Assembly: GCA_019637395.1 (NCBI GenBank)
Contig: JAHBVR010000004.1
Span: forward strand, 248,001-312,000
Direction of reading: 5' to 3'
Length of the DNA stretch: 64,000 bases
Origin: Vulcanimicrobiota bacterium
GTDB lineage: Bacteria; Vulcanimicrobiota; Xenobia; Xenobiales; JADMJV01
Position numbers and translations under genes: made by a program. Positions within the stretch are counted from its first letter, which is position 1. Each line of letters opens with the position of its first letter. This document shows, piece after piece, positions 5,240 through 38,959 of the stretch. The notes beneath the pieces are model-generated. The model was not told the DNA's origin. It saw nothing but the letters and a program-made list of their open reading frames with translations, and ran no database searches.

Positions 5240-6958
5240 TTACGAGTTACGGCAGGCGTTCAGGTCGGCTTGCAGCTTGTCGTGGGTGGCGTCGGCCTGG
5301 TGGTGTTCGGCGTTCAGGTTGTCCTTCTGGTTGCTCAGATCGCGAATGGCGCTGTTGAGGTTGTTGACGCGATCCTGATTCCTGCGGACTTCCTGACGAG
5401 CCGAGTTGAGCTGGCTTTGAGCGGACGACAGCTGGCTGGCGGCATTGCCCTTCTCGTTGTTGGCCTGGTTAGCGTCCTGCTGGGCGCGGTCGCGCTCTTG
5501 TTGGGCGTAACGCAGGTCGTTTTGCAGGCCGGGCTTTTGAGCGTTGACCTGCTGGTTGGTCTGCTCCTGAATCCGCGAGTCAATCGAGTTTTTGCGGTTG
5601 TTCAGGTCGGTTTCCTTGGCGTTCAGCTCGCCCTGCAGACCGTCGTAGCGTTGCTCGACGGGCACACGGTCCTTGGCGAACTTGGCGTCGGATTCCCTGG
5701 TGATCTGAGTATCCAGCCCGGCCTCTTTGGTTTTGAGCTGACTTTCGAATTGTTTGAGTTCCTTGTCTTTGGTCTCCAGACGCGCGTTCCAATTGACCAG
5801 GCTTTCACCGGTCTGAGCGTCGGGCTTGGAGGCCTTGTCCTTGTATTGGGCCTGGCCACCGGCCTCGATTTTTCCGTTGATTTCGTCGAGGCGACCCTTG
5901 ACGTCGGCTTCGGCGGCGGCGATGCCGGCTTCCCGTTCATCCAGCTTCTTGGTTTCGCCGCGGTAGAATTCACGTTTGCTGAGGGCATCGGCCTTAAGGC
6001 TGTCTTCGCGGGCGTCCAGCGCCGCCTTTTTCTCTTCCAGGCGTTTGCCTTTGGCGTTCTGCGATTCATGGTCGCCTTGCGCCATTCCCAGCAGTTTGCC
6101 GCCGGTGTGATCCCAAAGTTTCTTGGAGGCTTTGGCGGCGGTGAAACCACCCAGTCCGCCAACCGCCGCGAAGAGCGCGCCGCCGATGATGCCGCCAGCC
6201 ACGCCGGCCGCGCCGATAGTGGAAAGACTGACGTTGCTGGCCAGCAGACCATTGACCAGGCTACCGGCCGAGGCGACCGAGGCGCCCAGTGTGAAACCGC
6301 CGACCGCGCCGCTGAGCATACCGACGCCGCCCAACACCGAGGAGTAAAGTTTCATTCCGCCGCTCATGTTGTTGAGGTCGGTGAAGTTGGTCTTGAGGAT
6401 GTTGGGTTTTTCTTCCTTCTGGATGCGCGGCGGGCCGTCGCCGCCGGCGGCGCTTTCCGCTTTGGCCCAGACTCCTTGCACCGCGCCGACGGCGGCGCCG
6501 GGGACGAAGCCGGCCGCCTTGCCTACCGCGTTGCCAATTCCGTTACCCACTTGCCAGGCGCCGGCCGCGCCGCTGATGCCGCCGATAACCATACCGGCCT
6601 TGGCCATCACACCGGCGGTGGCAAAGGTGCGGCCGACGAAGTCGAGCGCGCCATGCGAGGTGACCGCGCTGAGCACCGGTCCGAAGCCCGCGCCGGTCAG
6701 AGTGCCGACGATGGCGCCGCCGAGCACGCCGGCGTAGAGGGCACCGGTCACGGTAGCCAGTCCAGCAGCACCACCCACCACGGTTCCAGTGGCGTTACCC
6801 CAGGCGATACCCGTGCGGATCGCGGTCTGACCAACGGTCGGCTTAAAACCATCCTGAGGTCCGGGCGGAGGCGGAGTGTCGCCGTTGGGCTTGGGAGCCT
6901 CATTTTTGTTCAGAGTGGTGATCGGGGCCTGGAAATTATTCACTGACTGGAGTTTCAT
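5240..6958 (-). CDS. Glycine-zipper and coiled-coil protein of unknown function
   Basis: 572 residues, ATG preceded by GAAGGA about 11 nt upstream. Residues 1-45 are polar and Pro-rich. Residues 45-275 are several Gly/Ala-rich hydrophobic stretches (for example VVGGAAGLATVTGALYAGV, GGIIGGALFAAVGGLGG) that look like glycine-zipper membrane-inserting segments. Residues about 300-560 are an almost uninterrupted charged coiled coil rich in Lys, Glu, Gln and Asn. There is no Sec signal peptide. The start (MKLQSVNNFQAPIT) resembles the starts of two other small proteins in this window (39262 and 43536). The combination of hydrophobic hairpins and coiled coil recalls translocator or pore-forming proteins, but I recognise no family and assign no function. 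Confidence 0.7.
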   Translation of the reverse strand: MKLQSVNNFQAPITTLNKNEAPKPNGDTPPPPGPQDGFKPTVGQTAIRTGIAWGNATGTVVGGAAGLATVTGALYAGVLGGAIVGTLTGAGFGPVLSAVTSHGALDFVGRTFATAGVMAKAGMVIGGISGAAGAWQVGNGIGNAVGKAAGFVPGAAVGAVQGVWAKAESAAGGDGPPRIQKEEKPNILKTNFTDLNNMSGGMKLYSSVLGGVGMLSGAVGGFTLGASVASAGSLVNGLLASNVSLSTIGAAGVAGGIIGGALFAAVGGLGGFTAAKASKKLWDHTGGKLLGMAQGDHESQNAKGKRLEEKKAALDAREDSLKADALSKREFYRGETKKLDEREAGIAAAEADVKGRLDEINGKIEAGGQAQYKDKASKPDAQTGESLVNWNARLETKDKELKQFESQLKTKEAGLDTQITRESDAKFAKDRVPVEQRYDGLQGELNAKETDLNNRKNSIDSRIQEQTNQQVNAQKPGLQNDLRYAQQERDRAQQDANQANNEKGNAASQLSSAQSQLNSARQEVRRNQDRVNNLNSAIRDLSNQKDNLNAEHHQADATHDKLQADLNACRNS

Positions 6959-10701: not shown

Positions 10702-12618
10702 CTACGTGTCTTGTGCCTCCACTTCCCGAGCATGTTCCATTACTAACTGGAAGCGGGGGGCGGGGTCTTTGCCGAAACAGTCGCGGACCGCCAGATCGGC
10801 CGCTTCTTCGTCGCGCAGAGCCACTCGATAGAGCGTGCGGCTGGCCGGGTCCAGGGTGGTCTCCTTGAGCTGCTGGGGGCTCATTTCACCCAGCCCTTTG
10901 AAGCGCGTAATTTCCGGTTTGGCGCGCTGGGTGCGCAGCATGCGCTCCTTTTCTTTGTCGTCCCAGGCCCACAGGGTCTGCTTGCTGGTGCGCAGGCGAT
11001 ACAGTGGTGGACGTCCCAGATAGACATGGCCGCCGCGAATCAGCTCCGGAAGATAACGATAGAAGAAGGTGATCAGCAGCCCGGCGATGTGATGTCCGTC
11101 CGAGTCGGCATCGGTCAGAATGACGACCTTGTGGTAGCGCAGTTTTGAAAGGTCGATTTTGTTGCCGACACCGCAGCCCAGGGCGCTGATCAGATTCAGG
11201 ATTTCTTTGTTCTGCTGGATTTTGGATAGATTGGCCTGCTCGGTGTTGAGCACCTTGCCGCGCAACGGCAAAATAGCCTGGTTTTTGCGGTCGCGGGCCT
11301 GTTTAGCGGAGCCGCCGGCGGAATCGCCTTCGACCACGAAGAGTTCGCATTCGGAAGGCCGATTGCTGGAGCAATCGGCCAGTTTCCCCGGCAAATTCAG
11401 ACGGGTAGTGGCCGTCTTGCGTGTGACCATGTCGATGGCCTCGCGCTGGGCTACGCGACTGCGGGCCGCCTGCAGGATGCGCTCGATGACGGCTTCCGCG
11501 TGCTTGGGATTGGCGTTGAGGAACTGCTCCAGGACCGGCGCCACTCCGTTGCTGACCAGGCTCTGCACTTCGGGATTGTTAAGGCGCTCCTTGGTTTGTC
11601 CTTTGAACTGCGGCTCCTTGACGTAGACACTGAGCACGCAACGCAGTCCGTCGCGCAGGTCTTCGGCGCTGAGCTTCAGGTTTTTGGGCGTCAGGTTGTG
11701 AGTTTCCATGTAGTTGCGCAGGGCGCGTACCACGCCGGCCCGCAGGCCCAGGTCGTGAGTGCCGCCCTGGGCGGTGGGAATGCCATTAACGTAGCTCCAG
11801 ACCCGCTCGTCGCCGTCCTCGACCCAGGATAAGGCTGCTTCCATGCGCGGTTCGTTCTCACGCTGCAGATAGAACGTCTGCTCATAAGCGGGATTACGTT
11901 GTTCGTGGTCGACCAGGCGTTGTAGATAGCCGTCGATGCCTTGACCATGATCAAAGCGCTGGATGCCTCCCGGTCCCTTAAAGGTGATTTTGACGCGATG
12001 CAGGTAGGATTTGGCTTCCAGTCGTTCTTCGATGACCTTGGGGTCGAAGGTGGTGGTGGCGAAAATCTCTGTGTCGGGGCGGAAAGCGATGGTGGTGCCA
12101 CTGCCGTGAGCGTCACCGAGAATCTCCAGCGGCGTCATGGCTTCGCCGCGACAATAGGACTGGCGGTAGAGTTTGCCGCCGCGTTTTACGCGGGCTTCCA
12201 GTCTTTCACTGAGGGCGTTGACCACCGATGCGCCTACGCCATGCAAACCACCGGAATACTGGTAATTCCCCTGTGAGAATTTGCCGCCCGCGTGCAGGGT
12301 GGTGAGGATCAATTCCAGTGCCGGCTTGTTGAACTGCTCATGAAGGTCGATGGGAATGCCGCGCCCGTTGTCGGTGATTTTGATGCCCTGCAGATCGGGC
12401 TCCAACTCGACTTCGATGCGGTCGGCGTGGCCGTTCATCACTTCGTCGATACAGTTATCCACGATTTCCCAGACCAGGTGGTGGAGACCGGCTTTGTCGA
12501 CGCCGCCAATATACATGGCCGGACGCACACGCACCGGCTCCAGTCCGGAGAGAACTTGAATATCCTGGGCCGTGTATTGCTCGGTTACCGGCTTAGACCG
12601 ACTCATCGTTGTTGCCAT
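10702..12618 (-). CDS. Type IIA DNA topoisomerase ATPase subunit (GyrB/ParE)
   Basis: 638 residues from ATG 12618, which has AGGAG 4 nt away; an alternative ATG lies at 12606. The order is GHKL ATPase domain (EIVDNCIDEVMNGHADR, DNGRGIPIDLH, GGLHGVGASVVNAL), transducer domain with the catalytic Lys region, and TOPRIM domain with EGDSAGG, PLRGKVLN and DADSDGHH (usual DADVDG). It ends with the FKGLGEM motif. The length, about 640, is that of GyrB/ParE forms without the large enterobacterial insertion. It overlaps the A subunit gene by 26 nt and is read after it. Adjacency and a variant A-subunit C-terminus leave gyrase versus topoisomerase IV open. Confidence 0.95.
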   Translation of the reverse strand: MATTMSRSKPVTEQYTAQDIQVLSGLEPVRVRPAMYIGGVDKAGLHHLVWEIVDNCIDEVMNGHADRIEVELEPDLQGIKITDNGRGIPIDLHEQFNKPALELILTTLHAGGKFSQGNYQYSGGLHGVGASVVNALSERLEARVKRGGKLYRQSYCRGEAMTPLEILGDAHGSGTTIAFRPDTEIFATTTFDPKVIEERLEAKSYLHRVKITFKGPGGIQRFDHGQGIDGYLQRLVDHEQRNPAYEQTFYLQRENEPRMEAALSWVEDGDERVWSYVNGIPTAQGGTHDLGLRAGVVRALRNYMETHNLTPKNLKLSAEDLRDGLRCVLSVYVKEPQFKGQTKERLNNPEVQSLVSNGVAPVLEQFLNANPKHAEAVIERILQAARSRVAQREAIDMVTRKTATTRLNLPGKLADCSSNRPSECELFVVEGDSAGGSAKQARDRKNQAILPLRGKVLNTEQANLSKIQQNKEILNLISALGCGVGNKIDLSKLRYHKVVILTDADSDGHHIAGLLITFFYRYLPELIRGGHVYLGRPPLYRLRTSKQTLWAWDDKEKERMLRTQRAKPEITRFKGLGEMSPQQLKETTLDPASRTLYRVALRDEEAADLAVRDCFGKDPAPRFQLVMEHAREVEAQDT

Positions 12619-27157: not shown

Positions 27158-29626
27158 ATGCTCAAAAAATGCGGCCTGCTGGCCCTTCTGACTTTGCCTT
27201 GTTGGGCTCAGACCAACACCACCACTGTCCCGGAACTCAAGCCCTACGATCAGGTCATCACTTCCAAGGCCAGGAGCCAGGGCGGGCTTTTCAAGGTCCA
27301 CCAGGTCGGCGAGAAGTTCTATTACGAGATACCCAAAGGCCAATTGGATCGGGATTTTTTGATGGTGGTAACGATTGCCCGAGGGAAGCCCGGCACGGGG
27401 GATGGCGGCGGCGAGGGGATCGGCCGGCGGGTGGTCCGCTGGCATCGACAGGACCGCCGGGTTTTGCTTCAAGAGCTGGACTATAGTGTGTGGGCTGACC
27501 CCAGGCTGCCTATCGCCCGGGCGGTGGCGGAAGCGAACAACCCGGTGATTCTGGGTTCTTACCTGGTGGAGACGGAAGGCGATCAGAAGGCTCCTGTCAT
27601 CGAGGTCACCAAACTGTTCAATAGTGAGGTCATCGAATTCAGCCCGCGCTACATGTTGGGGGCCAAAGCCTTCGACCAGACCCGCAGCTTTGTTGAGCGC
27701 ATCTCGGCTTACCCGGAAAATATCGAGGTCGAGTCCACCCTGACTTTGACCAACCCGGAAGCCAGCCCCACCTATGTCTACGGGGAGATGGGCCGGGGCA
27801 CGGCCACCGTGCGCATGCACTACAGCATGATCAAGTTGCCCGAGCAGCCCATGAAACCGCGCTTGATCGACAGCCGGGTGGGCTTTTTCGGCACCCGCCA
27901 GATCGACTACGGCACCAACGACCACTTTGTCAAAAAGCAAGAGTATCTGGCGCGCTGGCGTCTGGATAAGAAAGACCCGAGCGCAGCGGTGTCTGAACCG
28001 GTTAAACCTATCGTGTTCTATATTGATCCGGCCACGCCGGCGGCCTGGGTTCCCTATGTCAAGAAAGGCGTGGAACAATGGCAGCCGGCTTTCGAGGAAG
28101 CCGGCTTCAAGAACGCCATCCTGGCTTTGGAGCCGCCCAAAGATGGCAATTGGAGTATTGAGGATGCCCGCTTCAGCACCATCCGCTGGGTGGCCTCGGA
28201 TACTCCCAATGCTTATGGACCGCATATATCCGACCCGCGCACCGGCGAAATTCTGGAAGCGGACATTCATATGTTTCACAATATCTTGGATTTGCAGCGG
28301 CGCTGGTATTTCACCCAGGTGGCTCACCTGGATCCACGCGCTCAGCATTTGCCCATGCCGGATGATTTAATGGGACAGTTGATTGAATTCGTCGTTGCTC
28401 ACGAAGTCGGACACTCTCTGGGATTCCAGCACAATATGCGCGCCAGTTCAACCTACTCGCTGGCCCAGGTGCGCGATCCCATCTGGGTAAAAAAAATGGG
28501 CCATACCCCCAGCATCATGGATTATTCGCGCTTCAATTATGTGGCCCAGCCCGGCGATAAAATTGCTATTACCGATTTAATACCACGGGTAGGAGCGTAT
28601 GATCGATTTGCGGTGCATTGGGGCTATGCTCCGATTCCGGGGGCTCCGACCGCGCAGGCTGAAAAGGCCACTCTGGACCAATGGGCTCGTCAGCAAGACT
28701 CCACGCCCTGGCTGCGCTTTTCCAACCTGGACAGCGGTGGCGCCGATCCTGGCGATCAAACGGAAGCGGTGGGTGATCAGGACCCGGTGGCGGCCACCCG
28801 CCTTGGTCTGAAGAACTTGAGACGCACGGCCGGGTTGCTGTTAGGGGCCACCCAGCAATGGGGCGAGGACTACAGCGAGTTGCGCCACTTCCGCAATGCT
28901 CTTTTCGGTCAGTGGGGTACGGAGTGCAATCATGTGGTGGCGCTGGTGGGCGGCGTGCATAAACAGAACAAACACTTCGGCCAGAGCGGGCCGATCTATA
29001 GCGTGCTTCCTAAAAAACGCCAGCAGGAAGCGGTGGATTTCTTGCTCAAAGAAGTCATGGGCCCGCAGGACTGGTTACTCGATCCGGGCCTGGTGCGCTT
29101 GTTGCAAATGGAGCGCTCCATCGACCAGGTGGCTTTCGTGCAGCGCCGACTGCTCTCCAACCTGTGCAGTTCGCGCCGGCTGAATCGCATGGCCGAGCAG
29201 GGGGTCTATCCGGTCTCGGAGTTGCTGACTACGGTTCGTCACGGTCTCTTTGCCGAGCTGCTCAAAGGCCAACCGGTCTCCCTGCAGCGTCGTATGGTGC
29301 AACGCGCCCTGGCCGATATTTTTATCGATCTCAGCTACTCCAGCGGTGACTCTCGCAATCATGGCCTGCGCCAGATGCGCTTGCTGGAGCAAGAATTAGC
29401 CGCGGCTCGCAAACGCACCAGGGACGAGGACACGCTGGCCCACCTGGACCAGCTGGCCGACGACTTGCATCGCGAACTCGACCCCCGCGCCCACGGCCGG
29501 CGCGGCAGCGCCGGCCAGCACGCCTGGAACTATACCGAACCGGCCGTGCAGAACTGCTGGTTTGACTCGGGTTCTCAGTGGCTACTGCCGGCCGACCAGG
29601 GCGCCGAACTACATACTATTCGGTAA
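27158..29626 (+). CDS. Exported zinc-dependent metalloprotease (metzincin-like)
   Basis: 822 residues with a signal peptide (MLKKCGLLALLTLPCWAQ). The catalytic motif is HEVGHSLGFQH (415-425), an HExxHxxGxxH metzincin site, with MDYSRFNYV as the probable Met-turn. The N-terminal 250 residues and C-terminal 300 residues match the arrangement of large secreted proteases annotated as DUF5117/DUF4953. The role is probably periplasmic or outer-membrane-associated protein degradation. ATG 27158 lies 63 nt from the divergent esterase start. Its end overlaps the next, convergent gene by 11 nt. Confidence 0.92.
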   Translation: MLKKCGLLALLTLPCWAQTNTTTVPELKPYDQVITSKARSQGGLFKVHQVGEKFYYEIPKGQLDRDFLMVVTIARGKPGTGDGGGEGIGRRVVRWHRQDRRVLLQELDYSVWADPRLPIARAVAEANNPVILGSYLVETEGDQKAPVIEVTKLFNSEVIEFSPRYMLGAKAFDQTRSFVERISAYPENIEVESTLTLTNPEASPTYVYGEMGRGTATVRMHYSMIKLPEQPMKPRLIDSRVGFFGTRQIDYGTNDHFVKKQEYLARWRLDKKDPSAAVSEPVKPIVFYIDPATPAAWVPYVKKGVEQWQPAFEEAGFKNAILALEPPKDGNWSIEDARFSTIRWVASDTPNAYGPHISDPRTGEILEADIHMFHNILDLQRRWYFTQVAHLDPRAQHLPMPDDLMGQLIEFVVAHEVGHSLGFQHNMRASSTYSLAQVRDPIWVKKMGHTPSIMDYSRFNYVAQPGDKIAITDLIPRVGAYDRFAVHWGYAPIPGAPTAQAEKATLDQWARQQDSTPWLRFSNLDSGGADPGDQTEAVGDQDPVAATRLGLKNLRRTAGLLLGATQQWGEDYSELRHFRNALFGQWGTECNHVVALVGGVHKQNKHFGQSGPIYSVLPKKRQQEAVDFLLKEVMGPQDWLLDPGLVRLLQMERSIDQVAFVQRRLLSNLCSSRRLNRMAEQGVYPVSELLTTVRHGLFAELLKGQPVSLQRRMVQRALADIFIDLSYSSGDSRNHGLRQMRLLEQELAAARKRTRDEDTLAHLDQLADDLHRELDPRAHGRRGSAGQHAWNYTEPAVQNCWFDSGSQWLLPADQGAELHTIR

Positions 29627-30821
29627 GTAGTGAGCCCAGCACGCGGCGGCGGGCCGTGCGCAGTTGGCGCAAACGATAATTGGCGTGACTGGATTCCCCC
29701 TCCAGGGTGCGCAGATGGTTCTCGTGGTCCAGGATCTGGACTTCGTAGGGGAAGAAGAAGCGCAGCACGGGCTCAGGATTGTCCGCGCTCAGTTTGGAAA
29801 GCAGGGCGGCTAGTTCCTCGTTGGGAATGCGCTCGCTGAGGGCGGCGCGCAGCTCTTGCAAGGCGGAGTATTGCGGATTGGGCACGCGGATCAACTGGCG
29901 GCAGGTGAACTGGATGGAGCGAAAAGTCGAGGACGAGTGGGGGTTCTGGGGTGGATTTTCCTCGCCGCTCGGTTCCGTGGGCCGTTGCAAGGCCGCCCAA
30001 TTGCTCTTGAAGCTGCCGGGCGCGCCCGGGCGCGAAATGGACTCATAAACGTCGCGGAAGCGCTCCAGGTCGATCAGTGTGTTACGGGAGCGTCCGGGCA
30101 TGATGTTGGCAAAAATAGCCAGGTGGTTGCGCCGTATGTATTTCAATACGAGCAGCGCGTCCACTTTGGTGGGGGTGACCAGCTTGACGCCAATGCGGTC
30201 GTAGACGCCCTGGGCCACGTTGTCGGGCTTGTGCAAGAGTTTCAGGATCAGGCTGTCGCGGCTCTTTTCTTCCCGTAACTGGATGTCTTCCAGGGGCACC
30301 GCCAGCAGTCCGGTGCCCAGGTGGAGTTTGCCCTGAGCGTCCTGATGAACGTGCTGGCGATAGCGTTCTAAGATTTGGCTTTGGATCTCCTGGTAAAAGG
30401 GAGAGCGGACGGCGTGGTTGGCGTGGCTGATGGTATGCATGACGCGCAGCAGGGCGCAGGCCCAGGGTTGGAGCGGACCTCCGTGGGAAGCCAGTAGGAG
30501 GATTTCGGTCAGGTCGGTAATCTGTTGCAAATCCTCGGGTAGTCCCACGGCCTGATCTTCTGGGGTAGGGGCGGGACAGAGGACGCGCTCGAGGTATTCG
30601 ATGCCTTCGCGAAATACAGTCCAGGCTTCGTGATGTTCGCTGGGGATGGCCATGTCATAGCCGTAATGAACCAAGAACTGGTATGCTTCGTCACGACTCT
30701 GCAGAGCCAGCCGATTCAGGTCGATGGGAGAGACGCCGTCCAGAAAAGAACGTAAGGTTTCCCAGGAAAAATCGTAGCGGTTGCGTCCCCAACTCAAGCT
30801 CATATAGGGCCTATCTTGCAT
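29616..30821 (-). CDS. Unknown protein with a possible RelA/SpoT-like nucleotidyltransferase segment
   Basis: 401 residues from ATG 30821 behind a G-rich site. The central part contains LREEKSRDSLILKLLHKPDN followed by VYDRIGVKLVTPTKVDALLVLKYI. This resembles the Arg/Lys-Ser...Lys and DIxGxRI strands of the RelA/SpoT synthetase fold, but the match is by eye only. The rest is helical and charged, with a Pro/Ser linker near 285-300. No signal peptide or membrane helix. It is divergent from the strong promoter of the Ro/ubiquitin-like cluster. I do not assign alarmone synthesis without a profile search. Confidence 0.72.
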   Translation of the reverse strand: MQDRPYMSLSWGRNRYDFSWETLRSFLDGVSPIDLNRLALQSRDEAYQFLVHYGYDMAIPSEHHEAWTVFREGIEYLERVLCPAPTPEDQAVGLPEDLQQITDLTEILLLASHGGPLQPWACALLRVMHTISHANHAVRSPFYQEIQSQILERYRQHVHQDAQGKLHLGTGLLAVPLEDIQLREEKSRDSLILKLLHKPDNVAQGVYDRIGVKLVTPTKVDALLVLKYIRRNHLAIFANIMPGRSRNTLIDLERFRDVYESISRPGAPGSFKSNWAALQRPTEPSGEENPPQNPHSSSTFRSIQFTCRQLIRVPNPQYSALQELRAALSERIPNEELAALLSKLSADNPEPVLRFFFPYEVQILDHENHLRTLEGESSHANYRLRQLRTARRRVLGSLLTE

Positions 30822-30862
30822 ACCCACCCCGGGACCCCTTCGAAAAAATTTGCAGTTGTCTG

Positions 30863-30891
30863 TTGACAGAATTACGGAGTCTCCCTATACT
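30863..30891 (+). promoter_or_regulatory. Strong sigma70-type promoter upstream of the Ro/Ub-like cluster
   Basis: TTGACA (30863-30868) and TATACT (30886-30891) are separated by exactly 17 bp. Transcription should start near 30898 and read a 32-residue ORF and then a terminator at 31044-31078. Confidence 0.8.
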
Positions 30892-30924
30892 CGAAAAATC
30901 CCACGACGAAAGGAAGAATATCTA

Positions 30925-31023
30925 ATGCTCGGATTTAGTAATTATCGTCCAACGCATTCGATTGTCGATTGCCCCACCCTATGGGCAATGGGCCAATCCC
31001 TTCGTCGCAGCGGCATAAGTTAG
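30925..31023 (+). CDS. 32-residue leader-type ORF
   Basis: ATG 30925 is preceded by AAAGGAAG about 7 nt upstream and lies 27 nt after the predicted transcription start. It encodes MLGFSNYRPTHSIVDCPTLW plus twelve more residues and ends in TAG at 31021. It is followed within 21 nt by a strong intrinsic terminator. This is the layout of a leader peptide and attenuator, or of a short monocistronic peptide mRNA. There is no obvious run of one regulatory codon, so what would be sensed is unclear. Confidence 0.5.
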   Translation: MLGFSNYRPTHSIVDCPTLWAMGQSLRRSGIS

Positions 31024-31043
31024 CGTTCTACAGCGCTCGCCGA

Positions 31044-31078
31044 AACCCGCTGCTCAGCCAACGACCAGCGGGTTTTTT
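31044..31078 (+). terminator. Intrinsic terminator / possible attenuator before the Ub-like gene
   Basis: AACCCGCTG (31044-31052) pairs perfectly with CAGCGGGTT (31066-31074), with a 13-nt loop and a T6 run to 31078. It lies between the 30863 promoter and the 31139 gene, so it either ends a small RNA of about 180 nt or controls read-through into the cluster. Confidence 0.88.
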
Positions 31079-31138
31079 AATGGGCTCCCTCGGATCCCAC
31101 GGAGTCTCCCGCCGGCTACAGAAAGGAGACCCTCGACT

Positions 31139-31339
31139 GTGTTCCACATTCGTTACGCAGGACGTACCTTCGAAATCAAGCCTAAAGTATTTGAATTGTC
31201 CCTGAAAGCCACCGACCGCGAGATTATGTCTCGGGTCGCTGACTGGCTGGGCATCCCGGAAACCGGCTTGAAGAATTACGTCATCGACCGTCGGCCCAGC
31301 GGCCAGGTGGTCGTTCGCCCTGAAGCCATTTTTGGCTAA
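31139..31339 (+). CDS. Ubiquitin-like beta-grasp protein (putative)
   Basis: 66 residues from a GTG start with an AAAGGAG site closely matching the one before the TROVE gene. The pattern is beta-grasp-like: a beta hairpin (MFHIRYAGRTFEIKP), one helix (TDREIMSRVADWLGIP), then strands ending VVVRPEAIFG. The GIP after the helix sits where ubiquitin has GIP too. The C-terminal residue is Gly, as needed for adenylation by an E1 enzyme, although only one Gly is present rather than two. The size is like ubiquitin and like the small Ub-like proteins of PRTRC and related bacterial cassettes. With an E1-like and a JAMM gene downstream in the same direction, it is the best candidate modifier. Fold assignment is inference. 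Confidence 0.62.
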   Translation: MFHIRYAGRTFEIKPKVFELSLKATDREIMSRVADWLGIPETGLKNYVIDRRPSGQVVVRPEAIFG

Positions 31340-31408
31340 CGGATTCGTAGCATAATTGTCGGGATGGGTCCTCATTTTATGGGGAAATGGGGATCCATTT
31401 CGGCTCAG

Positions 31409-31547
31409 GATCGAAGGGCGCGCCCTGACTGGAAAAGCTTACATACTGCTACTGGTTAGCACCTTTCCTTGGTAAGAAAGACCCCGTAGGTTCGACTCCT
31501 ACTGTGTAACAACAGCTTTTTCGACTTGCGCGAAATTCGATCTTTTT
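31409..31547 (+). ncRNA. Y-RNA-like RNA with a complete tRNA-like module
   Basis: The outer stem is GATCGAA (31409-31415) with TTCGATC (31536-31542), then CGCGC (31419-31423) with GCGCG (31528-31532), then AAAAGC (31433-31438) with GCTTTT (31515-31520). A T5 run follows at 31543. Inside is a tRNA-like cloverleaf. It has a 7-bp acceptor TTACATA/TGTGTAA (31439-31445/31503-31509), a D arm GCTA/TAGC (31448-31451/31457-31460), an anticodon arm CTTTC/GAAAG around TTGGTAA, and a 5-bp T arm GTAGG/CCTAC with loop TTCGACT (31491-31497). The acceptor continues into the long stem and no CCA end exists, so it is not a tRNA. Bacterial Y RNAs near Ro genes are known to carry tRNA-like modules. Confidence 0.8.
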
Positions 31548-31573
31548 CTCCGGCAATCATTCCATTTTGGCTC

Positions 31574-31662
31574 GGTCGGCGTCCCGACCTGGAAAGCTTA
31601 CATACACCCGACTGTAAATCGGGCTTATCGTTTCCAAACGAAGCTCACCCAATGTGCTTTCC
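31574..31662 (+). ncRNA. Second, shorter tRNA-like / Y-RNA-like RNA
   Basis: A hairpin GGTCGG/CCGACC (31574-31579/31584-31589) is followed by a 7-bp outer stem GGAAAGC/GCTTTCC (31591-31597/31656-31662) and ACAT/ATGT (31600-31603/31652-31655). It encloses a perfect anticodon-arm-like hairpin CCCGA-CTGTAAA-TCGGG (31607-31623), identical in form to a tRNA-Tyr arm. A further hairpin CGTT-TCCA-AACG lies at 31629-31640. The D arm and a proper T arm are missing. It shares GCTTACATAC and the preceding GGAAA with the 31409 RNA, so the two are probably paralogous. No terminator follows; it may be processed from the TROVE mRNA leader. Confidence 0.6.
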
Positions 31663-31713
31663 TGACTTACGCTTGGCCTTGCCATTTCTTCGCCCTCTGG
31701 AAAGGAGACTCTC

Positions 31714-33171
31714 ATGTTCGAACGCGATATTCGCCTGGGCCTGATGGATTCGTTGCTGTCGCCGGCCAAGGCGGAATTGTCGGATCTTGTAAAGATCCAC
31801 GCCGATGCTCTCGAGCTCGACGTACATTTTTACGGCCACCTCGCCGCCTGGTTTCATAAGCACGGACGTGTCCGAAGCTTTCGTGAGGTCTTCTGTGCCG
31901 GTCTGTTCGCCAGCCCGCTGCCCGAGCATCGCGAAGCGGGCTGGGTGATCCTCCAGTCTTTGGCCCCTCACCAGGTGGCCAACGTGGTGCGGGCGGCCAA
32001 GCAGCACTTCCACAAGGCTCCGCGCACTTTGCGCAGCGCCGTGGTCGACTTCTTGCGCCAGCGCGAAGCCAACTCGTTTGTCTTCGACCGTGCCGCCGCT
32101 CGTCAAGGTAAGGCTTTGAAAGAGCTCTACGCGGCTCTGCACATCGCCCCCGGCGAGCGCGCGCAGTCGGTGCTTTTTGCTCGCAAACCGCCCGAAGGCT
32201 CGCTGGCGGCCAGGGTCAAGGCCCTGGCCAACAGCACCTCTCCGGCCGAGCAGGCGCTGATGATTCTCGATCTCAAGTTGCCTTTCCCGGTGGCCGTGGG
32301 CGCCGTGCGTCAAATGACGCCGGCCGTGCTGGCCGCTCTGGTGGAGGTGATGACTCCGGCCGAAATCATGAACCACCTCAAGATGCTGGAAGCTCGCGGT
32401 GCTCTCGAACACAAGGAGTTGCGCCAGCGCATTGAGGAGAAGCTGAAAGAAGCCGGAACGGATGCGCGAGTGTCCGATTTGAAGGGCTTGAAGGCCGCCC
32501 GAGCGGTGAAGGATGACAATATTCGTCACCAGGTCGAGGCGGTGGTTCAGCAGCGGGCTTCGGCCCAGGGTCGCATCGTGCGCAGCACGGCCATCCTGGT
32601 GGATAAGTCCAGCTCTTTGACGGTGGCCATCGACGCGGCCATCCAGTTGGGTGCGCTGGTGGGTGGCCTGATGAAGGCCGACCTGCACGTGCTCGTCTTC
32701 GATACCGTGTCGCGCCCCGTCAAGGTGCCCGCCGGTTCGGCTTCCATCGCCGATTGGGAACGCGCTTTCCAGGGAGTGGTGGCCAACGGCGCTACCTCGG
32801 TCGGTTCTCCCGTAGCCTGGCTGCGGGCCAACCGGGTGGAGGTGGAGCAGTTGGTGGTCATCACCGACGAGGAAGAGAACACCGCTCCTTACTTCCACAG
32901 CCAGCTCGAGCTTTACCAGCGCGAGCTGGGCCTAATGCCCGGCGTAGTTTTGCTCAAGGTGGGCCACGCCTCCAATCACTTGGAGCGCCAGCTTCTCCAG
33001 CGGCAGATTGCGTTTGATACTTACCAGTTCACCGGCGACATTTTCTCTCTCGCCAACCTGATTCCGATGTTGACCCGACCGGGCCGTCTGGAACTGTTGA
33101 TGGAGATCCTGTCCACACCGTTGCCGGTGCGCCAGACCAGCCCTGCCGTCAAGAGCAATAGGGCCAGCTGA
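31714..33171 (+). CDS. TROVE-vWA protein, bacterial Ro60 (Rsr) homologue
   Basis: 485 residues, ATG 31714 with an AAAGGAG site. Residues about 1-285 are alpha-helical repeats of a TROVE domain, the ring that binds misfolded RNA and Y RNA in Ro60. Residues about 290-470 are a von Willebrand A domain with an intact MIDAS: DKSSS (Asp297, Ser299, Ser301), Thr361 in GATSVG and Asp385 in ITDEE. Bacterial Ro proteins act in RNA quality control, often with PNPase or the RtcB/RtcA repair genes; neither is here. The two tRNA-like RNAs directly upstream are the expected Y-RNA partners. It is followed by an unknown gene and E1- and JAMM-type genes in the same direction. Confidence 0.9.
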   Translation: MFERDIRLGLMDSLLSPAKAELSDLVKIHADALELDVHFYGHLAAWFHKHGRVRSFREVFCAGLFASPLPEHREAGWVILQSLAPHQVANVVRAAKQHFHKAPRTLRSAVVDFLRQREANSFVFDRAAARQGKALKELYAALHIAPGERAQSVLFARKPPEGSLAARVKALANSTSPAEQALMILDLKLPFPVAVGAVRQMTPAVLAALVEVMTPAEIMNHLKMLEARGALEHKELRQRIEEKLKEAGTDARVSDLKGLKAARAVKDDNIRHQVEAVVQQRASAQGRIVRSTAILVDKSSSLTVAIDAAIQLGALVGGLMKADLHVLVFDTVSRPVKVPAGSASIADWERAFQGVVANGATSVGSPVAWLRANRVEVEQLVVITDEEENTAPYFHSQLELYQRELGLMPGVVLLKVGHASNHLERQLLQRQIAFDTYQFTGDIFSLANLIPMLTRPGRLELLMEILSTPLPVRQTSPAVKSNRAS

Positions 33172-33233
33172 GCTGCAGTCGTCCGAGCGCTAGGGCCGTC
33201 GACTGTCGTCGGCCTCCCTGATTGGAGTAGGAA

Positions 33234-34004
33234 ATGACTCTACGCGCGCTCGTACAGAGACTCGCTCAGCAGGAACTAGATTGGCAGGGACGTCACCTGC
33301 TCGCCCCGGTGGTTGCCCCGGGGCGAGCGCGGGTGCGTCTCCAGGGTCTGGTTTATGAGTTTCGCACCTCGCCCGCGGATTTCTGCGGCTTTGGTGTGTT
33401 CGCACTGAATGCCTCGGGGCTGGCCGATTACGTCCGCTCGGCCAGCCCCCCCGAAAGGGAGAAATACCTCAAGCTATGGCCGCGCCGGCAGGTGCGGTTG
33501 CTGCGGGAGGTTGCTCCCGGTAGCTGGCTGACGCCCGGCGGACTGGTCCACGAAGTCGAACGCGGCTCGCTCTTTGAGCTGGTCGAGGTGGCTTTTGATG
33601 GCCGCAACCTGTGGTATTGCCGGCCGGTGTTAAATACCCGGCTGGCCCTGGCGGAAGAAATGGCTCGTGCGCTGCGCGATGGTGTATCCGAACACGAATT
33701 GCATCTCAAGGGTCTGACGCCAATGGATCGCGCCGCCTTCGCTTTACTGGTGAAGCCGGTGGTGGGGGATGACCACGAGCGTCTGGCTCGCGCGTTGCGG
33801 CGTGGTGGCGGAAGCTTACGCAGCTTTTCGGTGGACGGGGATTCTTTCCAGGTCCACTGGGAAGATAGCCGCGGATTGTCCCGTTTTTCAAGTATCCGAC
33901 GAAATGATCTGACGGTTTTGAGTTCGGGCATCTGTTTGTCCGGACGAGATTCCGATTTTGACCTCACGTCTCTAGTGGGCGTGCTGGAGGAGGAAGAAGA
34001 CTGA
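33234..34004 (+). CDS. Unknown protein of the Ro/Ub-like cluster
   Basis: 256 residues, ATG 33234 with a good GGAGTAGG site. No membrane segment or signal peptide. The N-terminal half is beta-rich (VRLQGLVYEFRTSPADF, then a single Cys in FCGFGVF); the C-terminal half has a helical part and an acidic tail (LEEEED). It lies between the TROVE gene and the E1-like gene, with 1 nt to the latter, so it belongs to the same operon. An adaptor, E2-like or target-binding role would be the obvious guess, but no E2 catalytic signature is visible and I leave it unassigned. Confidence 0.78.
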   Translation: MTLRALVQRLAQQELDWQGRHLLAPVVAPGRARVRLQGLVYEFRTSPADFCGFGVFALNASGLADYVRSASPPEREKYLKLWPRRQVRLLREVAPGSWLTPGGLVHEVERGSLFELVEVAFDGRNLWYCRPVLNTRLALAEEMARALRDGVSEHELHLKGLTPMDRAAFALLVKPVVGDDHERLARALRRGGGSLRSFSVDGDSFQVHWEDSRGLSRFSSIRRNDLTVLSSGICLSGRDSDFDLTSLVGVLEEEED

Positions 34005-34005
34005 T

Positions 34006-34644
34006 ATGAGCTTCACCCTACACGAGACCCGCTACCGCGGGCGGGAACTATTGCAGAAGCTGGCCGGAGCCCGTATTACCGTGTGCGGCGCCGGTTCGCT
34101 GGGAGCCAACCTGGTGGAACAACTGGCTCGTTGCGGAGCCACCGGTTTGACCGTCATCGATCGCGATCGTTTGGAAGAGCAGAATCTGGCCACCCAGCCT
34201 TACGGCCGCAGCGAGTTGGGTGGTTATAAGGCTATCCTGTTGTCAGCCCAGGTTTACCGGGCACTGGGACTGCAGGTCACGGCCGTGGCCAAGGAGCTGA
34301 CTGGCGATACGGCCGCGCGCTTGCTGCGCGGTTCACAACTGGTGGTTGACTGTCTGGACAATCGGGCCGGTCGCCTGTGCGTTCAGGAAGCCTGCCGCCA
34401 ATATCAGATCCCCTTGCTGCACGGTGGGTTGAATGGAGATTACGCCGAAGTGGTCTGGGACGCGGCCTACACTGTTCCCAGCGGCGCCGGCGAGGATGTC
34501 TGTGACTACCCGCTGGCCCGCAACCTGGTGACGCTGACCGTGTCGACTTTGGCCGAATCGATTTTGACATGGTTAGACAACCAGGAGCAACAGAGCTGGT
34601 CACTGACCCTGCGCGACTTCGCCATCCGGCCCTGGTTGGCGTAA
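34006..34644 (+). CDS. E1-like / ThiF-family adenylyltransferase
   Basis: 212 residues. It has the Rossmann ATP-binding loop CGAGSLG (27-33), acidic IDRDRLEEQN (51-60) and a QPYGRSELGGYKA segment matching the E1/ThiF region that binds the modifier tail. A Cys in EDVCDYPLA near residue 168 could be the thioester cysteine. The family adenylates the C-terminal Gly of ubiquitin-like or sulfur-carrier proteins. It is compact, without extra domains. No ThiS, MoaD or thiamin/molybdenum gene is near; the 66-residue beta-grasp candidate upstream and the JAMM gene directly after point to a conjugation cassette instead. Confidence 0.88.
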   Translation: MSFTLHETRYRGRELLQKLAGARITVCGAGSLGANLVEQLARCGATGLTVIDRDRLEEQNLATQPYGRSELGGYKAILLSAQVYRALGLQVTAVAKELTGDTAARLLRGSQLVVDCLDNRAGRLCVQEACRQYQIPLLHGGLNGDYAEVVWDAAYTVPSGAGEDVCDYPLARNLVTLTVSTLAESILTWLDNQEQQSWSLTLRDFAIRPWLA

Positions 34645-34976
34645 TGGAACACGCCCGGCGGTGTTTTCCTGAGGAGTGCGTGGGCTTATTGATCGGCGAG
34701 GGGGATGAGGTTTTCAACTTCATCCCCCTTTCCAATGTACATCCGGCGCCACGACAGGGGTTTGCTTTAGCGGAGGCGGAGGTGGCTCTACATTTGGGTA
34801 AGGGCGTGGTAGGACTGTACCATAGCCATCCAGGAGGGGGGGGAGGGGAGCCGTCGGTCCTGGATGATCTCGCCGGCTTTTGTTTCTATTGGATAGTAGA
34901 CCCGCTCAACGGTAAGATCTACGAAACCCGCCGTAGGATGAATAAATGCGGCCGCGGTGAAAGCTGCCCAGAGTGA
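34644..34976 (+). CDS. JAB/MPN (JAMM) metalloprotease-like protein
   Basis: 110 residues from ATG 34644, whose A is the last base of the E1-like gene's TAA stop. The JAMM zinc motif is complete: catalytic Glu10 or Glu11 in PEECVGLLIG, then YHSHPG with His60 and His62, exactly seven residues to Ser71, and Asp74. This is the classical HxHPx7SxxD spacing. Prokaryotic JAB proteins cleave ubiquitin-like proteins from targets or trim their tails. The fold is slightly short at the C-terminus. Its last 71 nt overlap the convergent gene ending at 34906. It completes the Ub-like, E1, JAMM set. Confidence 0.87.
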   Translation: MEHARRCFPEECVGLLIGEGDEVFNFIPLSNVHPAPRQGFALAEAEVALHLGKGVVGLYHSHPGGGGGEPSVLDDLAGFCFYWIVDPLNGKIYETRRRMNKCGRGESCPE

Positions 34977-35905: not shown

Positions 35906-35980
35906 CGGGCCTCGGGCCTGGCCTCGAATCAAGCTGGTGTTCGCGAGGTTTGCGGCGGGTGGGCAGGGAAGGCGCGGACT

Positions 35981-36304
35981 ATGGACGAGATAACCCCTTT
36001 AGAATTCAAAAAACAATGGGATGAGGGCCGCCGGCCGGTGCTCATCGACGTGCGTGGCGCCGACGAATGGGAGATCTGCAATCTCGAGGAGTTCGGCGCC
36101 CGGCTGATTCCCCTCCAGGAGTTGCCACAGCGCTACACGGAAATCCCCAAAGACGGCGACATCGTCATGCAGTGCCGCTCCGGGGGACGTAGCGCCCAGG
36201 CTCAGCGCTTTCTCCAGGCCCAAGGTTACGCAAAAGTGCAGAATCTGACCGGCGGCATGCTGCGCTGGTCGGACGAAGTCGATAGCAGCAAGCCCAGATA
36301 CTAG
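35981..36304 (+). CDS. Rhodanese-like sulfurtransferase domain protein
   Basis: 107 residues from ATG 35981; a longer open frame to the left runs through the tandem repeat and is not credible. A single rhodanese domain: LIDVRGADEWEICNLEEF, then the active-site loop CRSGGRSAQA with the catalytic Cys and the GGMLRW end. These proteins transfer sulfane sulfur or act as Cys-based sensors. The stop TAG shares its G with the GTG start of the NurA gene, so they are coupled. Confidence 0.9.
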   Translation: MDEITPLEFKKQWDEGRRPVLIDVRGADEWEICNLEEFGARLIPLQELPQRYTEIPKDGDIVMQCRSGGRSAQAQRFLQAQGYAKVQNLTGGMLRWSDEVDSSKPRY

Positions 36305-37176
36305 TGATCAGCGTCAGCGAGTGGGTGCCCTCCTATGGGGACCCACACCAGCTGGAGGATGAGCAAGAGTATGCCCGTGTTTGGGAGCACGCCGAGCTGC
36401 AGGCGGTCGATACGCCTCTTACGCCGCGCCCGCGGGTCGCCTTCGTGGATGGGGTGCGGCGAGCGGAGGCGCTTCTGTATTTGGACGAGATTACGGCCGT
36501 AGCCGGAGTGCTGGCGGCGGGGGCGGCCGTTCCGGGTGGCGGCTACGCGGGGGTGCGGGTGGAGCGCGTCTTCCTGCGGGCTGCCGAGGTTCGATTGCCT
36601 CCTCAAGCCGGCGGCTGGAGTTGGCGTTCGCTGCTGATCCCCGCCGACCTGAACGCCGAATTGGCCCTGCAACGAGCCATGCGCGAACTGGAAGCGGAAA
36701 TCGGCCTGGCTCTGGCCCGGGAAGGTTACGCCCTGGTGCTGGACGGCCCCATGGCAACCGCCCTGCCACGGGCCGTCGGTTACGTAAAGACTCAGCAGCG
36801 CTCGTTGCTTCCACCGGAACAGAACGAGGCTTTGGGTAAATTACGGGCGGGCCAGCGCAGCAGCATGTTCGCCTGGGGCAGCAAGCACGGCTGCTATATG
36901 CGCCTGAGTCATGACCGCGAGCACCAGCATCCATACCACGGCCTGGTTCGACTGGAATGCATGGGGGAGGCGGAAAGTTGCCGCGCCTGGCTCCACGAAG
37001 TGGCCGGCTGGCTACCCGCCTTCGCCGGGGTGGCTCACCTCGATCCGCGTGCTCCCCAGAATCTGCAGCCCATCGCGGGCCTTGAAAAAGAACTGCGCCG
37101 CCGCTGCGGCGATCCCGGTCTGGCCCTGCGCGCCGTGCGCCAGGCCGTGGCTCAGCTACAGAAAGGTCTCAGTTGA
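36304..37176 (+). CDS. NurA-domain nuclease
   Basis: 290 residues from a GTG start. NurA signatures appear in order: VAFVDGVRRAEALLYL (metal-binding Asp), ALVLDGPMATALP, GYVKTQQRSLL and a C-terminal HPYHGLVRLE segment. NurA is a Mn-dependent 5'-3' nuclease that works with the HerA hexameric translocase to resect DNA ends. A HerA-type gene begins 2 nt after this stop, confirming the pair. Pairing is usual in archaea and scattered in bacteria, where such pairs occur in repair and in phage defence. Confidence 0.87.
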   Translation: MISVSEWVPSYGDPHQLEDEQEYARVWEHAELQAVDTPLTPRPRVAFVDGVRRAEALLYLDEITAVAGVLAAGAAVPGGGYAGVRVERVFLRAAEVRLPPQAGGWSWRSLLIPADLNAELALQRAMRELEAEIGLALAREGYALVLDGPMATALPRAVGYVKTQQRSLLPPEQNEALGKLRAGQRSSMFAWGSKHGCYMRLSHDREHQHPYHGLVRLECMGEAESCRAWLHEVAGWLPAFAGVAHLDPRAPQNLQPIAGLEKELRRRCGDPGLALRAVRQAVAQLQKGLS

Positions 37177-37177
37177 A

Positions 37178-38959
37178 ATGGAACGAGTCGGTTTGATCGA
37201 CGGCCTGGAGCCGGGAACCACCAGCAGTTTCCGCGTAGTCCTGCAGGAAGACAGCCTGGTGCAGCTTGACGATCTGCTGGTCACCCAGCAGAAGCTGCCC
37301 GACGGCAGCCTGCACCGCACTTACGGACTGGTGGCCGAAGTCTACTCGCGACTGGAGGGCGCTTCTTTCCTGAGCGATACAGCGCGTATCGCCCAGGACC
37401 ACACCATGCCCGGCCAGGGAATGCGCTACGCCGACGTGCGCGTGCTGCGCCACGTGCCCGAGCTCTATATCCCGCCTCAGTCCGGCGCCGAGGTTTTCAA
37501 GGCTGCCGGCGAACTCAGGCGCGAAGCCCTTTATGAGGATCAGATGGGCAAAGGAGTGGCGGTCGCGCTCGATCAGTCCGGCATGCCGGTCATGGTGGAT
37601 CTGGAGTTCCTGGATGGCACGCGCGGCGGCCACGTTTCCATCTCGGGCGTTTCCGGCGTGGCCACCAAGACGTCCTTCGCCCTGCATCTGCTCTACACTC
37701 TGATGGAGAGTCCCCAGGGACGCCAGGCGCTGGGTGTGCACGCGGCTTCCACCCGGGCCCTGGTATTCAACGTCAAGGGTGAAGACTTGCTCCACTTTGA
37801 CCAGCGGTCGCGGCGCTACTCCGAGCGGTTGGCGGCCAACCCGGACCTGGCCGAGCAATGGCGCCAGCTCGGCATCGAAGAACCGGGACCCTTTCGCAGC
37901 GTGGCTTTTTACGCGCCCCTCTCCCGTCAGGCCGGCACCACCGCCATGACCGATGTCAGCTCGCGGGCCGGCGGCAACCTGCGGGTTTACGGCTGGCCGC
38001 CTCTCGACTTCGTCAAACAAGGGTTGCTGCGTTTCTGTTTCGCCGACGCGGACGACGGCCGCAACCAGCTCTCTTTCGTGGAGCAGCGGGTGCGCGTGCA
38101 ACTGGCCCGGTGGACCCACCCCAGCCTGGAACACCCTGGCGCCATCGTGATGATTCCGCCTGAGCACGGCTGCTCGTTTAATTTGGAGAAGCTGGTTGCC
38201 CAAAAGCGTCCGCCGCGTCAGGCCGGCGAGGGGGAATTGTGCCGCACCCTGGCCGACATTCTCGATTTCTTGGAGAATCAGTTCGAGGTCAATTTGCAGG
38301 AATGGGCCGGTAATACCCAGGCCAATACGGTCAATGCCTTTCTCCGACGGTTGCAGGCCATGGCGCCCCGTTTCGGCCATCTGATTAGCGATAAGGTCAC
38401 CTCGCTGCAGCTCGAAGGCCCGCTGGCTCCGCAGGAAAACGTGGTCGTGGTGGATATCCACAACCTGCACGACGACGGCCAGCGTTTTGTGGTGGGCACG
38501 CTGCTTTCGTCGGTCTTCGCCGCCAAGGAACGCGGGCAGCGCTTTCCGCTCCATTTCGTGGTGCTGGATGAACTCAATAAATACGCTCCCCGACAGGGTA
38601 GCTCACCATTGAAAGAAGTCTTGGTAGATATCGCTGCTCGCGGTCGCTCTTTAGGAGTTCTCCTGATTGGGGCCCAGCAGTCCGCTTCGGACGTGGAGCC
38701 GACGGTGGTGCGCAACGCCGCCATTCGGGTGGTGGGGAGACTCGACTCCGGCGAATCGACCGCCGATTTTTATCGCTTCCTGACCCCCGCGCTCAGGGAG
38801 CGCGCCATCCGACTTCTGCCGGGGACGATGATTTTGGATCAGCCGCTGGTGCCCTCGCCGCTGCCCATTCGCTTCCCCTTCCCCAACTACGCCACCAGGC
38901 ACGATGAACTACCCGATATGAGTGAGGAAGAAAGCCAGGACCTGTTTACGTTTCGTTGA
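37178..38959 (+). CDS. HerA-type DNA translocase/helicase
   Basis: 593 residues from ATG 37178. Residues 5-110 form an N-terminal HAS-barrel (GLIDGLEPGTTSSFRVVLQ). The RecA-like core has a variant Walker A, SGVSGVATKTS (157-166 region), Walker B VVLDELNKYAPR and the sensor-like GAQQSASDVEP with RVVGRLDSGES. The order and length match bacterial HerA/DUF87 proteins that form hexamers with NurA. The Walker A inserts Val-Ala before Thr-Lys-Thr, slightly unlike GxxGxGKT, but the Lys-Thr is intact. Confidence 0.9.
   Translation: MERVGLIDGLEPGTTSSFRVVLQEDSLVQLDDLLVTQQKLPDGSLHRTYGLVAEVYSRLEGASFLSDTARIAQDHTMPGQGMRYADVRVLRHVPELYIPPQSGAEVFKAAGELRREALYEDQMGKGVAVALDQSGMPVMVDLEFLDGTRGGHVSISGVSGVATKTSFALHLLYTLMESPQGRQALGVHAASTRALVFNVKGEDLLHFDQRSRRYSERLAANPDLAEQWRQLGIEEPGPFRSVAFYAPLSRQAGTTAMTDVSSRAGGNLRVYGWPPLDFVKQGLLRFCFADADDGRNQLSFVEQRVRVQLARWTHPSLEHPGAIVMIPPEHGCSFNLEKLVAQKRPPRQAGEGELCRTLADILDFLENQFEVNLQEWAGNTQANTVNAFLRRLQAMAPRFGHLISDKVTSLQLEGPLAPQENVVVVDIHNLHDDGQRFVVGTLLSSVFAAKERGQRFPLHFVVLDELNKYAPRQGSSPLKEVLVDIAARGRSLGVLLIGAQQSASDVEPTVVRNAAIRVVGRLDSGESTADFYRFLTPALRERAIRLLPGTMILDQPLVPSPLPIRFPFPNYATRHDELPDMSEEESQDLFTFR

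Follow-up and report, generated by a model that had tools for sequence, protein, structure and literature searches.

What might a Ro60-like protein and small tRNA-like RNAs be doing among the genes of a ubiquitin-like conjugation pathway? The question is raised by 64,000 nucleotides of a Vulcanimicrobiota bacterium (GenBank assembly GCA_019637395.1, contig JAHBVR010000004.1, positions 248,001 to 312,000; hereafter, the window). Here, a single plus strand holds, in order, the gene for a 66-residue ubiquitin-like protein (Ubl), two RNAs, a Ro-like gene, a gene for a 256-residue protein (B), an E1-like enzyme, and a JAMM protease (Table 1). An earlier sequence-only reading had listed these parts, facing one direction and including two tRNA-like RNAs, and all of them were recovered in place. 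Ubl, the Ro60-like protein, B, E1, and often JAMM form one conserved cassette, and the reading favored here, with a probability of about 0.5, is that a Ro/Y-RNA ribonucleoprotein (RNP) is coupled to its own ubiquitin-like conjugation cascade.

The cellular role of Ro60, one of the major autoantigens in humans, is still under debate, and the only partners with which Ro particles of bacteria are known, to our knowledge, act in RNA decay or RNA repair. If a conserved Ro-Y RNP does have a Ubl cascade of its own, RNA surveillance would be tied to protein tagging.

Conservation and Co-Occurrence

The profile of the Ro-like protein has matches in 17 of the 149 genomes of the window's phylum, in 10 of 392 genomes from the phylum of the planctomycete relative, and in two cyanobacterial plasmids, one 595-kb phage record, and nine viral contigs. 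Hidden Markov model (HMM) searches of the surrounding open reading frames (ORFs) placed Ubl, Ro, B, and E1 together in most loci, which are numbered here with the prefix L. Cassette loci were found in the window's phylum (L035-L047), in Planctomycetota (L068-L070, L074), on cyanobacterial plasmids (L088-L090), and in huge phages (L079-L087, L091), the closest named relatives by Ro-like protein being L003 (93%) and L004 (85%). The window's genome is placed near Candidatus Eremiobacterota. The order is Ubl-Ro-B-E1-JAMM within the genus and Ubl-Ro-B-JAMM-E1 in planctomycetes and phages; some phages interpose other genes, and L045 is arranged Ubl-B-E1-Ro. The expectation that gene order would be kept in relatives was borne out, both within the phylum and beyond it.

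A co-occurrence check against TROVE proteins, proposed with the sequence-only reading, gave a clear association over the 149 genomes. Of the 13 genomes with a close Ro relative, 11 have Ubl, as does 1 of the 136 without (Fisher p 7e-14), and the RNA described below is likewise linked with Ro (p 3e-13); shared ancestry inflates these p values, not the recurrence. Two of the three Ubl/Ro mismatches are contig ends: the lone Ubl without close Ro is found at the edge of a contig of an incomplete genome, and in genome G135 the contig stops just short of Ubl. Because content and order recur in distant genomes, and because Ubl and Ro co-occur, the cassette goes beyond chance. A loose neighborhood, in which a Ro/Y RNA and a Ubl module are adjacent without cooperating, would account for the Ro homologues that have no Ubl cassette (L043, L048-L052), but it is highly improbable, as Ubl and RNA both track the close Ro relatives and the set turns up again in several phyla and in phages.

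The cassette is scattered unevenly among chromosomes, plasmids, and huge phages, which suggests that its function is accessory and mobile and perhaps belongs to RNA conflict. No defense library identifies the cassette as a system, PADLOC returning nothing for Ubl and B, and only general E1-E2 models for E1.

The window's genome carries a second, shorter copy, Ubl-Ro-B-E1 (L006), in which JAMM was not found; it is followed, at L006 12696-14423, by a gene for a 575-aa protein, possibly GHKL/Hsp90-like by eye. A divergent planctomycete locus (L078 3546-7783) shows Ro, a B-like gene, JAMM, and E1, Ubl not being found there, and may represent a second lineage of the system.

The Ro-Like Protein

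The sequence-only reading had described a TROVE-vWA protein with an intact metal ion-dependent adhesion site (MIDAS). The second half of this description stood as given: the site reads D297-K-S299-S-S301, T361, D385, with D297, S299, S301, and D385 invariant among 30 homologues and T361 in at least 90% of them. The first half needs rewording, as Pfam recognizes no TROVE domain in the protein and reports a weak vWA_Ro60 match alone (E 0.004), while kinship emerges at the level of family profiles. The profile of the 30 homologues matches human RO60 (9nen) at E 6e-11 and the TROVE proteins 9l5y/9kop at 1.5e-7, over positions 165-419, that is, a portion of the helical-repeat region together with the vWA domain. 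It is because of these profile matches that the window protein can be related to Ro60. With the Rsr equivalog model (NF041674) giving 16 bits for a cut-off of 900, the protein appears to be a distant branch of Ro60/TROVE and not Rsr proper.

The Y-Like RNAs

The Ubl-Ro gaps of relatives hold one to several RNA modules, each composed of a closing helix with CC(C/U)GA in its 5' strand and ACUUG in its 3' strand, an inner helix, the motif UUACA(U/A/C)AC, and a variable insert. These motifs resemble the Ro-binding helix of vertebrate Y RNAs (UCCGA, CACUUGAC). In window copy 1, the closing helix consists of GCGC/GCGC and GGAAAAGCU/AGCUUUUUC with the CCUGAC and GACUUG motifs, followed by UUACAUAC; the copy folds as a cloverleaf, with the acceptor-like stem on the closing helix (z -1.96).

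In the family alignment (A12), the inner helix pairs in 90.6% of cells with 64 two-sided changes (0 of 500 shuffles as high), and both-side changes occur at 7 of its 8 pairs; these counts lean towards structure because stem pairing guided the choice of alignment and inserts were trimmed. Independent checks are provided by held-out matches (L074 at 1190-1264, L046, L048, L072, L079, L087) and by genome specificity, the covariance model finding 11 places in 10 of the 149 genomes, every one beside a Ro gene. With default filters, the model gives window copy 2 47.9 bits, and copy 1 is absent from the listing; the filters-off run on the window is at odds with this, with low scores of 12.7 and 9.0 bits. 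The conclusions drawn here use the default-filter runs and the whole-genome scan, from which the two window RNAs appear to belong to a covarying Y-RNA-like family.

The insert is related to tRNA in several ways. At default cut-offs, ARAGORN and Rfam make no call anywhere in the window, copy 1 scoring 20.5 bits with the Rfam tRNA model where 29 are needed; copies in L036, L038, L085, L088, L090, and L091 pass this cut-off. In L039, L068, L070, and L075, ARAGORN run on circularized inserts calls a tRNA across the joint (0 of 4200 shuffles), as expected of circularly permuted tRNAs. Permuted copies match Rfam YrlA (RF02553) in L068 (35.1 bits, E 9e-6) and L088 (32.7 bits, E 2.5e-4), and the L068-YrlA alignment displays the order T-arm, acceptor, D-arm. 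The proposed Y RNA identity thereby gained support from relatives' copies, none of which reaches the YrlA gathering score of 69 bits, the window copies being unlisted. In phage loci, a Y-type helix with inverted strand order is inserted in the anticodon loop of a tRNA, and ARAGORN reads it as an intron (Table 1). This range of tRNA grafts (cloverleaf, permuted, anticodon-loop) constitutes a natural experiment on the origin of Y RNAs from tRNAs.

Other RNA genes lie near some modules. On a Kovacikia minuta plasmid, an array of more than 25 tRNA genes stands directly before the cassette (L088 3438-6778), and the Y module at 6570-6641 appears to split one of them. A large-subunit (LSU) rRNA fragment (55 bits) lies between Ro and B in the same locus (11272-11346), and a 23S rRNA-like stretch, AACGGTTCTAAGGTAGCAAAATTC, was noticed by eye inside a Y-type insert of L090 (about 1430-1565, minus strand).

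Ubl, E1 and JAMM

The 66-residue protein had been proposed to be a beta-grasp protein ending in Gly, and structure prediction agrees. AlphaFold2, run with 23 homologues, gives a beta-beta-alpha-beta-beta fold with a loose C-terminal tail (predicted local distance difference test, pLDDT, 86.7). VIA structural matches, with Z 4.3-5.5 for this 66-aa model, are mainly of ubiquitin fold (ubiquitin, ISG15, MoaD, TtuB, PB1), and several of these alignments reach the C-terminal residues; protein G is the chief match of other fold. Foldseek is weak, its best ubiquitin chain being at E 0.43. Neither Ubl nor B has a family in Pfam, NCBIfam, PHROGs, or PADLOC, and PDB sequence searches with their profiles yielded no credible match. 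The C-terminus is [FY]G in 25 of 26 homologues and RG in the remaining one, the invariant positions being H3, G8, R60, P61, A63, and the terminal G66. Ubl is thus predicted to be a ubiquitin-like beta-grasp modifier with a free C-terminal Gly.

The E1 matches Pfam ThiF (4.8e-27) and has, invariant in 24 homologues, GxGxxG, R42, D52, D54, N60, Q64, K75, D118, R123, W151, P158, and C166. MoeB and ThiF carry CxxC pairs, which occur in 0 of these 24 sequences. No NCBIfam ThiF/MoeB equivalog cut-off is reached (ThiF, 80 bits vs. 275). In a maximum-likelihood tree, the cassette E1s form one group (96/98) and seven PRTRC E1s another (99/99), and the host's MoeB-rhodanese (L111) and TcdA-type (L112) paralogues stand apart from the cassette group; the tree holds these two MoeB-/TcdA-type references only, and its deep order is unsure from long branches. 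The view of a compact E1 distinct from thiamin or molybdopterin ThiF is in line with these data. The JAMM residues were likewise as announced, with an intact H-S-H-P-x7-S-x2-D motif, a Prok-JAB match at E 3.5e-13, and a weak one to the desampylase model (34 bits of 130).

The same genes could be read as a sulfur-carrier module, in which an E1-made Ubl thiocarboxylate would deliver sulfur to tRNA or to the tRNA-like RNAs in the manner of Urm1/TtuB, with secondary roles for JAMM and conjugation. A single-domain ThiF-type E1, MoaD and TtuB among the structural matches of Ubl, tRNA-like RNAs, and, in the window, L004, and L036, a MoeZ-type rhodanese downstream of the cassette all fit this scheme. 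It is nevertheless unlikely, as no thiolase is recognized in the cassette, the rhodanese is limited to the genus among the loci read, the E1 is devoid of the CxxC pairs, and B and Ro would be left without a role.

Protein B

The model of B (pLDDT 90) consists of two OB-like barrels, a helical linker, and a domain made of a helix, four strands, Cys234, and a helix. At Z about 6-7, S17, IF1, and the Mpa double OB are among the structural matches of the OB region, a resemblance that may merely reflect a common arrangement. Cys234, which lies within a GICL motif, is invariant in 26 homologues together with G232 and L235, and the short paralogous B retains this C-terminal end. The order alpha-4beta-Cys-alpha and the GICL motif recall E2 enzymes, making an E2-like character plausible on the predicted model. 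Through elimination and the GICL motif, rather than demonstrated homology, B is likely to be the Ubl carrier.

Comparison with Known Systems

In RYPER, PNPase is attached to Rsr through the tRNA-like head of YrlA (PMC8394870). The cassette resembles this Rsr-YrlA-PNPase particle and the rsr-rtcBA RNA-repair operons in having a Ro60 homologue with vWA/MIDAS and a small RNA that combines a closing helix of Ro type with a tRNA-like head, some copies of this RNA matching Rfam YrlA. It differs from both in having a Ubl cascade for effector genes, Ro proteins that stay under the Pfam/NCBIfam TROVE/Rsr cut-offs, and several RNA copies per locus in three tRNA topologies, window copy 1 being a non-permuted cloverleaf. 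The cassette may thus be described as a Ro/Y RNP variant with a Ubl cascade as new effector, its Ro/Y-RNA membership being at the level of remote homology.

PRTRC cassettes (plasmid proteins A-F, ThiF, ParB) share a small Ubl-like C, a ThiF-like E1, a JAB protein, and a B with a conserved Cys. The system could therefore be a far-diverged PRTRC cassette with Ro replacing protein F: the order Ubl-Ro-B-JAB-E1 parallels C-F-B-A-ThiF, PRTRC B has a similar G-x-IC motif, the E1 profiles align (hhalign E 2.6e-18), and both are found on plasmids. Such a descent is quite improbable in view of the E1 tree, which splits the two groups, and of Ubl and B, which cannot be aligned with their PRTRC counterparts by profile. 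hhalign finds no profile similarity between Ubl and PRTRC C, a result compatible with remote kinship; the NCBIfam PRTRC B and C models do not match, and PRTRC_ThiF gives the E1 47 bits vs. a cut-off of 144.75. Ro and Y RNA also appear to stand in place of F, E, and ParB. Judged by its E1, the cassette appears not to be PRTRC.

The Ubl + E1 + JAMM logic is shared with archaeal SAMP/UbaA/HvJAMM1 and with bacterial CBASS-linked or Bub-type cascades, from which the cassette is distinguished by its Ro protein and Y RNAs; unlike Cap2, its E1 is small and separate, with no E1-E2 fusion. The open-access literature contained no report linking Ro/TROVE to a Ubl cassette, key surveys lying outside this search, and no priority is claimed. 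The 2016 RNA repair survey of Burroughs and Aravind is said to treat TROVE contexts and could already mention the association. TROVE is unmentioned in PMC1779556.

Proposed Mechanism

In the proposed coupling of a Ro/Y RNP to a Ubl cascade, the Ro-like ring would bind the Y-like RNAs by their conserved closing helix, leaving the tRNA-shaped head to act as an adaptor. E1 would adenylate the C-terminal Gly of Ubl (Gly66) and take Ubl on Cys166, and B would accept it, probably on Cys234. The OB folds of B might bind the tRNA-like head and so bring B to the Ro particle, like the YrlA-tethered PNPase of RYPER; B is put forward as the partner of the head because of this analogy and of its OB folds. 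The recipients of Ubl would then be Ro or proteins attached to RNA that Ro holds, and JAMM, where present, would remove the Ubl.

The composition of the cassette (families, catalytic residues, conserved order, co-occurrence, RNA family) is well supported; every transfer step, B as carrier, RNA tethering, the targets, and RNA-triggering are what we infer from it. The tagging scheme of the sequence-only reading accordingly holds for its parts, Ubl conjugation and an RNA trigger or guide staying conditional. None of three outcomes set beforehand as counting against it (no beta-grasp, E1 grouping with ThiF, unconserved order) was observed.

Several results weigh against the coupling. Ubl has one terminal Gly, preceded by Phe/Tyr, and no GG. 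Many loci from the window's phylum yielded no JAMM in the HMM scan of surrounding ORFs; no RNA was detected in the paralogous loci L006, L035, and L037, where B is shortened, and the Ro loci L043 and L048 have no Ubl cassette in the stretch read. For B, Foldseek returned nothing under E 0.001, and the VIA rows chiefly cover the OB region, leaving the C-terminal domain uncovered. hhalign gave no profile similarity between B and E2 (E 0.11 over 7 columns), nor between B and PRTRC B, where remote kinship stays conceivable; PRTRC B itself aligns with UBE2D2 (E 0.001), so the test is able to detect E2 kinship. The conjugate, the thioester, and the RNA binding are predictions.

Ubl might instead control the Ro particle only, Ro (or B) being modified to open the ring and to load or release Y RNA, with no tagging of clients. 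Ro lies inside the cassette as a constant neighbor, and the Y RNAs of known systems control access to Ro, but no computed result separates modification of Ro from that of Ro clients; this narrower role is considered rather unlikely.

A tentative extension of the proposed coupling concerns the RNAs as bait arrays. The Ro-binding helix, in three topologies, would be carried on mimics of different tRNAs (perhaps also a piece of rRNA), so that Ro particles would display decoys of the translation apparatus, and an attacking nuclease or modifier would be caught by Ro and tagged with Ubl. This doubtful scheme would, if true, mean that bacteria, plasmids, and huge phages carry a ubiquitin-like tagging system directed by RNA. 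The system is small enough (five genes, short RNAs) to be rebuilt in a test tube, and it makes testable whether Y RNAs are general adaptors plugging different effectors onto Ro.

Locus Layout and Flanking Genes

Table 1. Features of the cassette in the window, and tRNA insertions in phage loci.
Feature	Position	Strand	Basis or remark
Sigma-70-like promoter TTGACA-17-TATACT	30863..30891	+	11/12 matches; 5' of cassette; in L004 by eye
Short leader ORF, 32 aa (MLGFSNYRP...), putative coding	30925..31023	+	start and length similar in L004 (by eye)
Terminator-like hairpin AACCCGCTG...CAGCGGGTT with T run	31044..31078	+	by eye; between promoter and Ubl; kept in L004
Ubl, predicted 66-aa beta-grasp protein, GTG start, C-terminus ...RPEAIFG-stop (Phe-Gly)	31139..31339	+	predicted fold, homologue alignment
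Y-like RNA copy 1	31420..31531	+	closing helix, non-permuted tRNA cloverleaf
Y-like RNA copy 2	31578..31672	+	closing helix as in copy 1, two-hairpin insert
Ro60-like protein, 485 aa, helical-repeat region and vWA with intact MIDAS	31714..33171	+	profile kinship
B, 256 aa, predicted tandem OB folds (about 18-135) and C-terminal alpha-4beta-Cys234-alpha domain	33234..34004	+	structure prediction
Compact E1-like enzyme, 212 aa	34006..34644	+	Pfam ThiF, invariant residues
JAMM/Prok-JAB protease, HxHPx7SxxD	34644..34976 (ORF listed from 34569)	+	Pfam, residues
Anticodon-loop insertions	L085 1572-1690, 3397-3527; L091 3789-3916, 5968-6093; L082 3976-4114		

The leader ORF and the hairpin ahead of Ubl (30925-31078) form a possible attenuator, as in L004; the loop of the hairpin exceeds the length limit of the scan that gave the promoter, hence the call by eye. 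The probable start of JAMM is the ATG at 34644, which overlaps the E1 stop (TAATG).

On the minus strand, divergent from the cassette, lies a gene (29616-30827) of the TIGR04552/TIGR04562 families (E about 1e-105), to which no function is assigned by family. The stand-alone MoeZ-type rhodanese is encoded 3' of the cassette (35972-36301), the host genome encoding a separate MoeB-rhodanese (L111) besides. Further downstream (36304-38959), a 290-aa protein and a HerA-like ATPase (NCBIfam HerA_antiphage 19.9 bits, far under cut-off) form a possible HerA/NurA-type pair.

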